Shown here: one piece after another, positions 52,352-63,680 of the stretch
How positions within the stretch are numbered: position 1 is the first letter of the stretch
Layout: the number at the start of each line of letters is the position of its first letter
DNA from: Trichocoleus desertorum NBK24
GTDB lineage: Bacteria; Cyanobacteriota; Cyanobacteriia; FACHB-46
Assembly (NCBI RefSeq): GCF_030409055.1
Contig: NZ_CP116619.1
Span: 3,635,628-3,699,627, forward strand
DNA: 64,000 nucleotides
Direction of reading: 5' to 3'
Program-made: the position numbers and the translations under genes
Notes under the pieces: generated by a model
Told to the model about the DNA's origin: nothing
The model's input: the letters and a program-made list of their open reading frames with translations, nothing else
The model's database searches: none

Positions 52352-52511
52352 ACCTACGCTTTAACCCATGCAAAGAACCCATGTTTAATCTTAGCGAGTC
52401 CATGTGGGCTTCTATCTCAATCAGCTCTATAACTTCAACACTCTTTTAGGAACTGGGAATATTGGGGTTGCGTGCTGTAGCCGATTCTCTAGCCCAGCCC
52501 AACTTAAAAAC

Positions 52512-53711
52512 ATGCCTCAGTCTGCTCCTTCCAAAAATTCAGCTTGGTGCAATAGGGCCGAAACTGTACTCATTGCAGGTTCTATTGGTAGCTCAGTCGC
52601 AGCGGTTGTGTTGCAGCAAGTCACCTTTGCAGCGATTACATCAATTCAGCTTTCTTTTGTAGTGGGTCTAAATTCTTGGAGCCGCAAACGCTTTGATGAA
52701 GTAAATCAGCAAAACCAAGCTGCTATTACTCAATTGCAGCAACAACTTTCACAAGGGCAAAATTCTTTCGCTCAAATTGAGCAGGCAACACGGCAGCTAC
52801 CCACTCACGAGGAACTTGGAGATCTACAGCACAATCTGGAGCAATTGGAAGCTGACCATCAAAAACGAATTGAGCAATTGCATGAGGAGCTAAGAAATCA
52901 GGAGTGGCAGCTTAGCCAGTCAAGAAATGAATTAACCTCTCTTCATCAAACTCTAAAATCCACTCTACCTGTGGATATGGATTCTTTTCAGAACAGAATT
53001 CATGACTTAAAAGCTCACTTTGAATCAAAAGCTAGAGATTTAGAAAAACAATTTAACCATCAGCCTTTACTTATTCAATTAGAAGGCCAAGTATCCAAGG
53101 CTGAACAAAATATTATTTATCTCCTGAAACTAACCGCAGACCAAAAGAACTTTAAAGGCTTCTTCTCAGACGAATATCAAAATTGGCAAAAGCAGTTTCA
53201 AGAACTAAGTGAGAAGGTGTCGAGGCTGTCTTTACTGGAAAAATTCAACCCAGAAGATGTACGCAGTGATATTCAAATACTTTTGGAAGAAATTCAAGAA
53301 CTAGAGGCTCTGATAAAGAAACCGCTAGAAGTTGATGGAGAACTCGCCCTCAATGATTTGAGGGAACAAATTACCCAACTACAAAAAATGATAAGTTCTG
53401 TAGAGCAGAAAGTAGAGAAAATGAATAAGGATTGTCAGAAAAGCATTAGTTTTTCCAATAAAGGTGAAAATGAGTTAAAGAAGTATTCGAAAGCTTTAGA
53501 AGAAAATGGTTTGAAGCTAGCTGAGAAAATATGTATGCTTGAAAATCGCATTATTAAAATAGAGAAAACAATAATTTCACCACCTCCACCATCCCCACTA
53601 TATACATGCGATCGATGCGGCAAAGCATCTCATTCAATGCTTATAGGAGGACCATTTAATAATTCTCGATATTGCTCCCTAGGATGTATGCGGTCTGACA
53701 GAACAGATTAA
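52512..53711 (+). CDS. Coiled-coil membrane protein with C-terminal zinc-ribbon-like motif
   Basis: The protein (399 residues) starts at MPQSAPSKNSAWCNRAE; an ATG at 52404 would add 36 residues with no ribosome site. A hydrophobic segment follows (LIAGSIGSSVAAVVLQQVTF, about 19-50). A long coiled coil then runs to about residue 350 with repeated QL/EQLE heptads. The C-terminus has CDRCGKASHS then CSLGCMRSD, resembling a four-cysteine zinc site. A TM-plus-coiled-coil N-terminus of this kind is known from many unnamed cyanobacterial proteins. The cysteine tail is unusual. Function unknown; it could tether DNA, RNA or protein to a membrane. Confidence 0.8.
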   Translation: MPQSAPSKNSAWCNRAETVLIAGSIGSSVAAVVLQQVTFAAITSIQLSFVVGLNSWSRKRFDEVNQQNQAAITQLQQQLSQGQNSFAQIEQATRQLPTHEELGDLQHNLEQLEADHQKRIEQLHEELRNQEWQLSQSRNELTSLHQTLKSTLPVDMDSFQNRIHDLKAHFESKARDLEKQFNHQPLLIQLEGQVSKAEQNIIYLLKLTADQKNFKGFFSDEYQNWQKQFQELSEKVSRLSLLEKFNPEDVRSDIQILLEEIQELEALIKKPLEVDGELALNDLREQITQLQKMISSVEQKVEKMNKDCQKSISFSNKGENELKKYSKALEENGLKLAEKICMLENRIIKIEKTIISPPPPSPLYTCDRCGKASHSMLIGGPFNNSRYCSLGCMRSDRTD

Positions 53712-59001: not shown

Positions 59002-59225
59002 TTCAAACTGCTTGGGAAAGGCAAACCCACAAAAGTAATTGCCGAGCTTTTCATGGCTTAGTCCCAAGCGATTCACTCATATATCAGTGCTGTATCAAAG
59101 CCGTACTATATCGTAAGGCTTCATAATTTTGCTGTCTCTTCATAAAAGCAAATTTCTCCCATCAATGCTAGTCATCGAGTTGTACAGGGAACTCTACCTC
59201 TGTCGCTCTATTGAACTAACACTTC

Positions 59226-61754
59226 ATGCAGACAACTGAGCCCGTTGTAGTAGCTGATGAGCAATTAAGCTATCCATTTCTACTGATCACTCACATGGTT
59301 TGTGCGGATCAGCAAATCCATAATCAAGAGGCAAAAAGCCTGCGAGAGTTAGCCTCTCAAGCTAAAGTAGGCCAGCAAACGCTAGATGAGATGGAGAAGA
59401 TTTTAGCGCAAGATGAACAGCAGCTTCCTATAGATTCTGTAGCTCAGGCAGTACCCCGAAAACAAAGAGTAGAGGCAATACAACAACTTCTTGCGATCGC
59501 TTATGTTGATGGATTTTGCTCACCGTTAGAGCGAGCGATGATTGAACGTATCTCTCAGCTTTGGAGCATTCCACCAGATACTATACAGCGGTTGCTGATC
59601 AAAGCAGAGAGTGCTGCCGCCAAGGTGGAGAGTAACCCTGGAGAAGCCCAAGCTCTATCGTTTGGTGCCCGTCTGTTAAAGGGAGCTGACTCTCTACTGT
59701 CTCGCTCTCTTGTAAACAAGCTATCAGAAATTGCTCCGCAGGATGTTAGCCGTAAAGTTGAGCAACTACGACAAGAAATTCTTTTGGCTGGCCCTGAATA
59801 TGATGATGCAATTCATCAGTGCTCTGAAGTCGCCCGTGAGGATTATAAATTTGCAGAAGTGGCTTTAAAGTCAACCTATGCAGCTCTGCAAGAGTTGGGA
59901 AACAATATCCAGCAAGTTGTTGGGGAGATCAGAAATAAAACGACTAGCAAAGGACAGGCTGGTACTGCGAAAGAGGTTGCTAAGCAGCTTGAGAATACAA
60001 GACGAAGTTTAACTGCTGAAATTATTCAAGATTTGGGTAAGGTTCGTGAATCTCTCCAAGCGAAACAACGTGCTCTTAATCACTTCAGTATCGCTTTCAT
60101 GGGTAGAACCAAAGCTGGTAAAAGTACCCTTCATGCCATTGTGACAAATGAGGGCTGGGATGCAATTGGCGTTGGTAAGCAGCGTACTACTCGCTACAAC
60201 CGCGTGTACGAATGGAAGAACGTTCGCATTATTGACACTCCTGGTATCGGTGCCCCAGGCGGAAAGACCGATGAGGAAATTGCTCAGAGCATTATTGAAG
60301 AAGCGGATGTCGTTTGCTATGTAGTGACCAATGACAACATTCTTCAAACAGAGTTCGATTTCTTAAAAGTCCTGAAAGAGAAAGCAAAGCCGCTAATTAT
60401 TTTACTCAATGTTAAACATAATTTGCGGGATTCGCGACGATTAGAGCATTTTCTACAAAATCCTGAAAAGCTGTTTGCAATGGATGGCAAGAGCGGTTTG
60501 GGCGGGCATATAGAACGTATTCGCAGATATGCTAAGCAGAATTATGCTAACGATTACTTCAGCATTGTCCCAGCAATGTTGATTGCAGCACAAATATCTC
60601 GCGAAACAGAGGATCAGAAGCGTAAGCAGCAGCTTTTTCAAGCCAGTAAACTACAAAACTTCCTAGATTCAATTCGAGTGTCTCTCATTAAGCATGGAGT
60701 GATTCGGCGATCGCAAACACTACTTGGTTCTACTGTCGGCTCAATTGAAGAACCTGAAAGGTGGATAAAAGGAGAAGCTCAAGAGTATGAGCAGTTAATA
60801 GAAAAGCTCAAGGATAAGCGTAAAACTGTTCAACAAAAGCTTGAGAGAGCTAAAAAAGATACAGTAGAGGCTCTAAAGCAATTACTTGAATCTAATTTCC
60901 AAGTTGTTTTGAATTTAGTACCTTCTTTCGCTGAAGACCATTGGAGCTCTAATGAGAGCAGCATGAAATCAGGATGGGAAGAAAGGCTCAAAGCTATTAA
61001 ATTTGAGGATTCTTTGAAACTTGCCAATCAAGAGGCAAGCCAAAAATTTACAAAAGAAGTCCAAGAGATTCTGGAGGAAGTTGGAAACGAATTAAAACTT
61101 GTTGCGGAATTAAAAGGCGATGGATTTAAATTTTCCAAACAGAAGTCTGGAGGCTTGGATAGAGACTTACTAAGAATCACTAGAAATATCTTAGGAATTG
61201 CTGGAGCCATCTTAGTTTTCTTTCCACCATTAGCTCCTATTGGAGCTGCCTTTGGCTTCTCAGCATTTGTTGCTGGTTTTTTAGATAAGTTCTTTAAGAG
61301 TAAAGGCCAAAGACGGCATGAAGCTGTAGAGAAGATCACAAGCTCATTAAGAAGTCAGATTCAGGAGCAGAGAGTTCTTGTTATTCAGAAAGCACAAACT
61401 CAATTCGATCAAAACTGTCAAGCCATAGAAAAAAGTATTTTAGATTATTTTGATGAATTGATTGAAGGCTTAACCAGAATCAGAGCTCATCTTGAAGAAG
61501 CTCAAACTAAGCTATCGGCCTCATCCAATTATCTGAATCGTGCTTATGCAAAGCGTATCATTGATTACTGCCTGGAACAGCGAGAGCCTTTAACTGAGGC
61601 AAACATCAGCAAGAGCGTACTCAGAGTTAAACGAGACTTTGGACGAAACATCGTTATTTCTACCAAGTTGCCTTTACAGTCAAAAAAATCTTTGAACGAG
61701 CTGAAAGAAGTTCTTCAAGAAAACATCTCTATTCCCAACGTCAAATTCCAATAG
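59226..61754 (+). CDS. Dynamin-like GTPase with TerB-like N-terminus
   Basis: Dynamin-like proteins use GTP to bend, fuse or repair membranes. In this 842-residue protein, residues about 15-125 look like a TerB domain (THMVCADQQIHNQEAKSLRE; AYVDGFCSPLERAMIERIS). Helices precede the GTPase. P loop (G1) is GRTKAGKST at 293-301, G3 is DTPGIG at about 337-342, and a G4-like NVKHN follows LIILL. Helical stalk-like regions come next. A hydrophobic hairpin (NILGIAGAILVFFPPLAPIG, then AFGFSAFVAGFLDKFF; about 655-690) may insert into a membrane. The next gene, another GTPase, begins 12 bases later. Confidence 0.85.
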   Translation: MQTTEPVVVADEQLSYPFLLITHMVCADQQIHNQEAKSLRELASQAKVGQQTLDEMEKILAQDEQQLPIDSVAQAVPRKQRVEAIQQLLAIAYVDGFCSPLERAMIERISQLWSIPPDTIQRLLIKAESAAAKVESNPGEAQALSFGARLLKGADSLLSRSLVNKLSEIAPQDVSRKVEQLRQEILLAGPEYDDAIHQCSEVAREDYKFAEVALKSTYAALQELGNNIQQVVGEIRNKTTSKGQAGTAKEVAKQLENTRRSLTAEIIQDLGKVRESLQAKQRALNHFSIAFMGRTKAGKSTLHAIVTNEGWDAIGVGKQRTTRYNRVYEWKNVRIIDTPGIGAPGGKTDEEIAQSIIEEADVVCYVVTNDNILQTEFDFLKVLKEKAKPLIILLNVKHNLRDSRRLEHFLQNPEKLFAMDGKSGLGGHIERIRRYAKQNYANDYFSIVPAMLIAAQISRETEDQKRKQQLFQASKLQNFLDSIRVSLIKHGVIRRSQTLLGSTVGSIEEPERWIKGEAQEYEQLIEKLKDKRKTVQQKLERAKKDTVEALKQLLESNFQVVLNLVPSFAEDHWSSNESSMKSGWEERLKAIKFEDSLKLANQEASQKFTKEVQEILEEVGNELKLVAELKGDGFKFSKQKSGGLDRDLLRITRNILGIAGAILVFFPPLAPIGAAFGFSAFVAGFLDKFFKSKGQRRHEAVEKITSSLRSQIQEQRVLVIQKAQTQFDQNCQAIEKSILDYFDELIEGLTRIRAHLEEAQTKLSASSNYLNRAYAKRIIDYCLEQREPLTEANISKSVLRVKRDFGRNIVISTKLPLQSKKSLNELKEVLQENISIPNVKFQ

Positions 61755-61766
61755 AGGAATTAAGCC

Positions 61767-63524
61767 ATGACTCAAAGTAATAATGGTTTTAAGGCTGCCA
61801 CCATTGGTAGTAAGTTCAAGAATGCTTGTGTCAAGTTCGATAACTTATTAGCTAAAGGAAGTACTGAAGAACTCACAGCGATTCGAAAGAAACTACGCGA
61901 AGGATTGAAAGACTACCAGCAACAGGGAGTACTCAGCGTTGCCTTTGTAGGACAGTATAGTGCAGGTAAATCCACCATTATTTCTGCCCTTACAGGCCAA
62001 CGAGATATTCGCATTGATGCTGATATTGCAACTGATAAGACCTCCAGCTATGGCTGGAACGGTATTAAAGTCATAGATACACCAGGGCTTTTTACAGAAA
62101 GGAAGGATCACGATGACATTACTTACAATGCCATTGAGAAATCAGACCTGTTAGTTTTTTGCCTGACTTATATGCTATTTGACTCAATCACGGTTGAGAA
62201 CTTCAAAAAGTTAGCATTTGATAAAGGCTATCGCTGGAAGATTATGCTGCTCGTCAACAAAATGTCTGACGAAGCTGGAACTGAGGACCAAAAGATCGCT
62301 AGTTATCGTAAGAGCCTCACTGACGCCCTAAAGCCTTACAACTTAGATGAATTTCCTGTTTGCTTTATTGACGCAAAAGACTATTGCGATGGCGTAGACG
62401 ACCAAGAAGATTTCCTGATGGAGATTAGCCGCTTCAATACATTTATTGATGAGCTGAATCAGTTTGCAGAGCGCCGTGCTTCTCTTGCTCGTCTAGATAC
62501 TCCCGTTCGGATTGCTCTAGGCTGCATTGATGAAGCTCAGGTTAGTTTTACTCGTAACTCGAAACAAGATTCAGCTTTCCTTGAAGTTCTCACACGCCTC
62601 TCTCGCACAGTTCGTAAAGAGCGTGATCGCTTACGGACAAAAGTTCAAGGAATTATTCTTAAGATGTCAGGTGCAGTTGTTCAAGAAGGTTCAATCTTGG
62701 CTACAGCGTTGGGAACTACAGCCGAACTCAAGACCTTAGATCAACAAGCTGAAATTAATCTTCGACAACACTATGAACAAGCTGAAGATGCTTTGCAAGA
62801 TGCTATTAATTCGGCCATTGAATCAATACAAGTAGAGGTAGAAAAAGTCCTCCAAAACGATTTAACTCAAGCATTCATTGCCCGTCTAGAAAAAGATCAG
62901 AAAATATCAACGCAAAATCCAGAGCTTAACACTGATCTGGATTCCCTGAAATGTCAAGTGAAGTTGCTTGAGAAGATCGGAGGAAAGGCTGGTGTTAAAT
63001 TAGCAAGTTCTGCCAGTAGAGGGCTATTGCCAACGGCTAGATCAGGCCCAGTATTTCTTCGATCTATGGATGTGGCGGGAAGTGGTCTCCATCAAGGTGT
63101 TCTAAAGATTGGGGGATTTATAGGATTTAAGTTCAAACCCTGGCAGGCTGTTGGTATTGCTAAAAATATTGGTAACGCAGCCAAATTTCTTGGACCTGCT
63201 ATGGCACTTGTCTCAGTTGGAGCTGACATCTACGCAAGCCGTGAAGAACAGGAAAATGAGAAGAAAATGGCTGATGCTCGCAACGATATTAGAAGTCAAT
63301 TTCAATCGATCGCAAAGAATTTAGAAACTCAGATTGAAAGCCAACTTCGAGAGTTTGAATCTCAAGTTTATGGAGAGATTGATCAGAAGATTGCTGAGGC
63401 TCGTCACACTGAAGAGAGCGTGATCGCTGGCTCAAATGAATGGGTCAAGCAACTGATTGCAATTCGGCAAGAGTTTGAAAGGATTATCCTTGATATTCAT
63501 CAATCCATGCCTCCTATTGTTTAG
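61767..63524 (+). CDS. LeoA/HP0731-like dynamin-family GTPase
   Basis: The 585-residue protein has a full GTPase domain: G1 GQYSAGKST at 62-70, G3 DTPGLF at about 104, G4 NKMSDEAG at about 164. Much of the rest is coiled-coil or helical. A weakly hydrophobic segment (FLGPAMALVSVGADIYAS, about 474) may contact membrane. Motifs resemble LeoA, a bacterial dynamin of enterotoxigenic E. coli. GAGG precedes the ATG. It lies 12 bases after the other GTPase, so they are co-transcribed and could form a hetero-oligomer. The pair is followed by a strong hairpin. The function is inferred from related proteins only. Confidence 0.85.
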   Translation: MTQSNNGFKAATIGSKFKNACVKFDNLLAKGSTEELTAIRKKLREGLKDYQQQGVLSVAFVGQYSAGKSTIISALTGQRDIRIDADIATDKTSSYGWNGIKVIDTPGLFTERKDHDDITYNAIEKSDLLVFCLTYMLFDSITVENFKKLAFDKGYRWKIMLLVNKMSDEAGTEDQKIASYRKSLTDALKPYNLDEFPVCFIDAKDYCDGVDDQEDFLMEISRFNTFIDELNQFAERRASLARLDTPVRIALGCIDEAQVSFTRNSKQDSAFLEVLTRLSRTVRKERDRLRTKVQGIILKMSGAVVQEGSILATALGTTAELKTLDQQAEINLRQHYEQAEDALQDAINSAIESIQVEVEKVLQNDLTQAFIARLEKDQKISTQNPELNTDLDSLKCQVKLLEKIGGKAGVKLASSASRGLLPTARSGPVFLRSMDVAGSGLHQGVLKIGGFIGFKFKPWQAVGIAKNIGNAAKFLGPAMALVSVGADIYASREEQENEKKMADARNDIRSQFQSIAKNLETQIESQLREFESQVYGEIDQKIAEARHTEESVIAGSNEWVKQLIAIRQEFERIILDIHQSMPPIV

Positions 63525-63525
63525 A

Positions 63526-63561
63526 TTCTAAGGGGGCTTTTCTAATAAAGTCCCCTTAGAA
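63526..63561 (+). terminator. Strong hairpin after the GTPase pair
   Basis: TTCTAAGGGG (63526-63535) pairs with CCCCTTAGAA (63552-63561), with inner CTTT/AAAG pairs. It begins two bases after the stop codon. No clear T run follows, so it may end transcription imperfectly or protect the transcript end. Confidence 0.6.
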
Positions 63562-63680
63562 AAATGAGAATAGTGTCCTTGCAGAACTAGAATACTGATT
63601 ACTTGAAATCCTGATACAGATTTGATAGCAAGGATAATTGTTGGCTGCTCAAGCTACAGAAATTTAGTATTTAATACAAC

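Follow-up and report, generated by a model that had tools for sequence, protein, structure and literature searches.

Eleos was reportedly first described by Millman et al. in 2022. An anti-phage system has been named 'dynamins' (PMC10999152), and one survey merged dynamins with Eleos, as both detections usually coincide (PMC11811056). A tandem dynamin pair is likewise found in the LeoABC system of enterotoxigenic E. coli, in which separate proteins, LeoC and LeoB, take the place of LeoBC, LeoC ends in a membrane anchor, no TerB domain is described, and vesicle release is the proposed role (PMC4159319). The operon-encoded heterotypic dynamins DLP1 and DLP2 of C. jejuni (5owv) form a tetramer that tethers membranes, and their GTPase activity requires both partners (PMC6104087). 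DynA of B. subtilis, which carries two dynamin units in one chain, clusters on the membrane, delays lysis after phage infection and protects against phages (PMC8844932). In cyanobacteria, tandem A/B dynamins and chaperone clades, some of them linked to DnaK, have been proposed to act in membrane dynamics; these clades, including an 'HSR1 clade', were defined by other neighbours than those treated here, with TerB unmentioned (PMC5827413). A TerB-containing system, Shango, combines TerB with a helicase and an ATPase and blocks phages (PMC10250203).

Here, we analysed a 64,000-nucleotide stretch (the window) of the single-contig 5.46-Mb genome of Trichocoleus desertorum NBK24, in which two genes on the plus strand with ATG starts encode proteins of 842 aa (59226–61754; LeoBC) and 585 aa (61767–63524; LeoA), separated by 12 bases. 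A strong hairpin follows on the same strand (63526–63561; −23.3 kcal/mol, z = −4.2). Since the bases right after this hairpin are AAAAAUG, with no U-tract found, and the terminator scan did not list it, we rejected an intrinsic terminator at this position, the hairpin itself being real. A preliminary description had recognised two adjacent dynamin-type GTPases, the first with a TerB-like domain ahead of the GTPase and a hydrophobic hairpin behind it, the second resembling LeoA, and a strong hairpin downstream of the pair. Each of these elements was borne out by the profile, fold and conservation analyses given here.

The first protein matched the PADLOC LeoBC profile (E 7.5e-109) over aa 192–832, corresponding to profile positions 7–593 of 601, and the second matched PADLOC LeoA over its full length (E 1.2e-128; positions 1–557 of 559). 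By profile, the pair is composed of predicted components of the catalogued anti-phage Dynamins/Eleos system (PDLC03841 and PDLC03839), with which it shares the same adjacency and nearly full profile lengths, differing in an approximately 190-aa TerB-containing N-terminal extension of LeoBC. The GTPase domain of LeoBC was recognised by Pfam MMR_HSR1 (aa 289–395, 1.3e-13), while its Dynamin_N match, at 21.1 bits, was weak and fell short of the 27-bit cut-off. LeoA matched DLP_helical (2.3e-12), MMR_HSR1 (4.9e-12) and Dynamin_N (2.1e-8), and its best PDB match by sequence was E. coli LeoA (4aur, 2.5e-11), the best solved relative. It scored 94.7 bits against the NCBIfam LeoA/HP0731 family NF041922, under the 325-bit cut-off, and is on this score related to that subfamily, though no member of it.

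Structural models pointed in the same direction. The AlphaFold model of LeoBC (mean pLDDT 75.9, moderate confidence) matched BDLP (3.8e-9), IniA, LeoA and the C. jejuni DLP1/2 pair, and that of LeoA (mean pLDDT 71.6) matched LeoA 4aur (1.7e-9) as well as BDLP, IniA and the DLP1/2 pair, so that the fold of both proteins is of dynamin type and not an unrelated one. Overall TM-scores against bacterial dynamins were low, as would follow from the hinges of multi-domain proteins and the moderate confidence of the models. These fold matches of moderate-confidence models, together with the paddle given by hydropathy, account for the GTPase, helical stalk and membrane-binding paddle by which the dynamin superfamily is recognised. 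The C. jejuni pair differs from the NBK24 pair in its low identity (about 12%) and in having no TerB, and DynA in belonging to a different subfamily, again with no TerB.

The catalytic motifs are strictly conserved: G1, the G2 threonine and DTPG (G3) were invariant across 42 LeoBC and 33 LeoA sequences. In LeoBC, the P-loop reads GRTKAGKS (aa 293–300; 60102–60125, plus strand; G293, G298, K299 and S300 in 42/42) and G3 lies at aa 337–340 (60234–60245, plus strand; 42/42); in LeoA, the P-loop is GQYSAGKS (aa 62–69; 61950–61973, plus strand; G62, G67, K68 and S69 in 33/33). At G4, the asparagine after the fifth strand is kept and the aspartate at +3 is missing family-wide (LeoBC 395–398, LeoA 164–167), which may give both proteins an unusual nucleotide specificity and may be relevant to the finding that E. 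coli LeoA on its own binds no nucleotide (PMC4159319). A hydrophobic hairpin, the probable membrane paddle, forms the hydropathy maximum of LeoBC (aa 648–690; 61167–61295, plus strand) and occupies the matching place in all 42 homologues. Because the hydropathy profile of LeoA held no comparable hairpin, the pair is asymmetric towards the membrane.

The N-terminal TerB domain of LeoBC (aa 20–122; 59283–59591, plus strand) matched Pfam PF05099 at 8e-10, its 39.5 bits exceeding the 24.4-bit cut-off. Pfam TerB was recognised in each of the 34 LeoBC N-termini scanned (24 from cyanobacteria and 10 from Bacteroidota), some of them being only 16–23% identical to that of NBK24. Its acidic residues form two D-x6-E pairs, D28/E35 and D95/E102, as they do in the solved TerB-type chains 2ou3 and 2jxu; D28, E35 and D95 were kept in 40 of 40 domain-bearing rows and E102 in 39 of 40, indicating that the acidic site is under selection. 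TerB domains in general bind metal, and by analogy the TerB domain of LeoBC would bind a divalent metal through these two pairs.

The PADLOC LeoBC profile region (601 positions) does not include TerB, and its match in NBK24 starts only at aa 192. The TerB extension is nevertheless no local oddity: as judged from homologous sequences, it is broadly conserved among cyanobacteria and Bacteroidota. Our wide survey of loci started from TerB-bearing seed sequences, which biases the TerB fraction within it; in the unbiased, cyanobacteria-only sample of 24 loci from an even genome sample, 18 LeoBC loci carried TerB. The domain was missing from plasmid copies in Klebsiella (L100) and Rhodovastum (L112), from one Bacteroidota copy (L109) and from a few cyanobacterial copies. 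On a tree of the LeoBC core, three changes of the TerB label were needed, one of them a nested loss in Calothrix (L074), the placement of long-branched rows being unsure. Within the open-access literature searched, we found no description of TerB together with LeoA, or of a 'TerB domain' with dynamin. The novelty originally claimed for the locus therefore holds in part: the TerB fusion looks undescribed, whereas LeoBC adjoining LeoA is a known arrangement (PMC4159319; Dynamins/Eleos, PMC11811056, PMC10999152), so that only the fusion, not the gene pair itself, looks new. Shango differs from the NBK24 pair in having no dynamin and in encoding TerB as a separate protein next to DNA-processing ATPases.

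Nearly every intact LeoBC has LeoA directly downstream. The two were adjacent or fused in 22 of the 24 sampled cyanobacterial loci, the two others being L116, cut at a contig end, and L129, without LeoA. Fusion occurs in one genome (G149, with the matches on a 3.3-Mb contig), which encodes two single-chain LeoBC-LeoA proteins: a TerB-LeoBC-LeoA chain of 1398 aa (L122:2560-6756) and a TPR-LeoBC-LeoA chain of 1711 aa (L126:1520-6655), in which about nine TPR repeats replace TerB and a remnant of the TerB end is kept at aa 412–446. Two dynamin units per chain are thus common to these fusions and DynA. The pair recurs, and its single-chain forms support the hetero-oligomerisation raised in the preliminary description. 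Other ends vary as well. TerB-bearing LeoBC proteins carry a C-terminal YbjN domain at two loci (L066:7923-10931, 1.4e-7; L067:7235-10168, 6.9e-7), and a Calothrix LeoBC without TerB carries a C-terminal Hsp70/DnaK domain (L089:7983-13355, 7.2e-194); the related, TerB-less Calothrix protein L074:7983-10187 ends just past the Hsp70 start. Ends that determine input or location would be expected to vary around a constant core of two dynamins, as seen here, and these sequence comparisons support LeoBC and LeoA as an obligate pair with exchangeable end domains that are probably sensory or targeting.

Two further observations concern the layout of relatives. In the PCC 7716 copy of the Calothrix LeoBC-Hsp70 gene, two short transposase-like ORFs on the opposite strand break up the gene. 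In two Nostocales copies, a gene for a small membrane protein lies between LeoBC and LeoA (L045:10608-10925, 105 aa; L049:10568-11017, 149 aa), the two products being similar to each other, with no Pfam match.

LeoBC/LeoA was detected in 23 of 291 cyanobacterial genomes of an even sample (LeoBC E ≤ 1e-40), at 24 loci. Sampling outside cyanobacteria was thin and covered Bacteroidota, with four matches in 297: the TerB-bearing seed genome (L108), the TerB-less L109 and two other dynamin-like GTPases (L110 and L111). In blastn comparisons, both congeneric genomes (G001 and G002) had an empty site at the locus, the segment missing at the same site in both corresponding to approximately 59023–63680, which we take as the approximate limits of the cassette. 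The left flank was colinear up to about 59022, and the right flank resumed inside the downstream minus-strand gene. Comparison of the flanks revealed a direct repeat of about 90 bp, with its left copy at 59027–59116 and its right copy at 64028–64115, just beyond the window, in the 5' end and promoter region of that downstream gene. The resident right copy is 97% identical to that of the congener and the left copy 86% identical to the resident one, indicating that the left copy probably came in with the foreign DNA. This pattern suggests that the cassette was gained by recombination through a related locus. The LeoBC-LeoA cassette is, as judged from these comparisons, patchily distributed and horizontally acquired; one copy in Pseudanabaena is carried by a mobilizable plasmid, with genes for a helicase, a methyltransferase and a Tn3 transposase close by. 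We rejected a prophage or viral origin, as a search of viral contigs and phage records turned up no relative.

The gene neighbourhoods did not uphold the connection with defence or tellurite genes that had been considered initially. All-against-all BLAST of 139 neighbours of about 30 relatives gave no recurrent neighbour family, with only sets of three, and PADLOC matches among these neighbours were scattered, a count made without a matched control; we claim no enrichment and rejected the defence-island reading. A tellurite operon was rejected likewise, no ter genes being present among the window ORFs examined or among the families listed for the 139 neighbours. Elsewhere in the window, 52404–53711 encodes a 435-aa coiled-coil protein with a possibly zinc-finger-like C-terminal end and weak matches of SMC type only.

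That the two proteins match profiles of a catalogued anti-phage system, LeoBC and LeoA respectively, strengthened the idea of defence, and an anti-phage function of the NBK24 pair would rest on this homology. We consider it probable, with some reservation, that the locus is a horizontally acquired anti-phage module built on an obligate LeoBC-LeoA hetero-oligomer that remodels membranes, with TerB serving for input or targeting. What we infer about membrane action, metal binding, the trigger and the outcome for defence is as follows. LeoBC and LeoA would join as an obligate hetero-oligomer seated on the inner membrane by the hydrophobic paddle of LeoBC, with LeoA as the less hydrophobic partner, and both GTPase domains would be required for activity. 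The metal-bound N-terminal TerB would hold the complex inactive or bring it to an infected or damaged membrane; on a trigger, the pair would assemble at the membrane and remodel it, most likely through tethering or stabilisation, which would delay lysis and the release of phages, with a benefit at the level of the population. This membrane-acting, release-limiting reading takes the C. jejuni DLP pair and DynA as its models. Against a defence module stand the association of E. coli LeoABC with vesicle release (PMC4159319) and the neighbours, which were not enriched in recognisable defence genes, albeit without a matched control.

The same paddle and oligomerising GTPase pair would also fit an abortive mode, in which LeoBC-LeoA, once activated, would disrupt the membrane of its host and so kill the infected cell before phages are released. 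Broken copies at 8 of the 24 sampled loci (about a third, an upper bound given the many draft assemblies) are compatible with such a costly system, but they may be draft-assembly errors or simple loss, and DynA, a dynamin that has been characterised, acts to stabilise membranes (PMC8844932); we regard this mode as unlikely. A housekeeping or stress-repair role that is not phage-specific, such as vesicle release or envelope or thylakoid maintenance, would agree with the lowered vesicle release of an E. coli leoAB deletion (PMC4159319) and with the role in membrane dynamics proposed for cyanobacterial dynamins. However, the presence of the pair in so few of the sampled cyanobacterial genomes and its absence from both congeners are unlike a core membrane function, making such a role quite improbable in our estimate. 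TerB homology would speak for a tellurite or metal-stress resistance gene, but ter families were missing from those listed for the 139 neighbours, TerB also occurs in the anti-phage system Shango (PMC10250203) and TPR replaces TerB in the paralogue L126, so that we give this explanation very little credence.

We know of no mechanism by which bacterial dynamin defence systems detect infection. Its conservation ahead of LeoBC, its replacement by TPR in a paralogue and its absence where Hsp70 is present make TerB probably the detecting part of the putative anti-phage module, and D28, E35, D95 and E102 are point-mutant targets for probing its role. For the complex, whose E. coli members LeoB and LeoC were not recovered in adequate amounts (PMC4159319), the natural LeoBC-LeoA single chains offer a 1:1 construct ready for structural studies. 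More tentatively, and with less than an even chance in our view, LeoBC may be a modular receptor-effector, in which a constant LeoBC-LeoA membrane-remodelling machine is combined with exchangeable ends (TerB, TPR, Hsp70, YbjN or none) as sensors of infection or of membrane damage, the TerB-bound divalent metal acting as the switch. If so, domain swapping would alter what the system detects.
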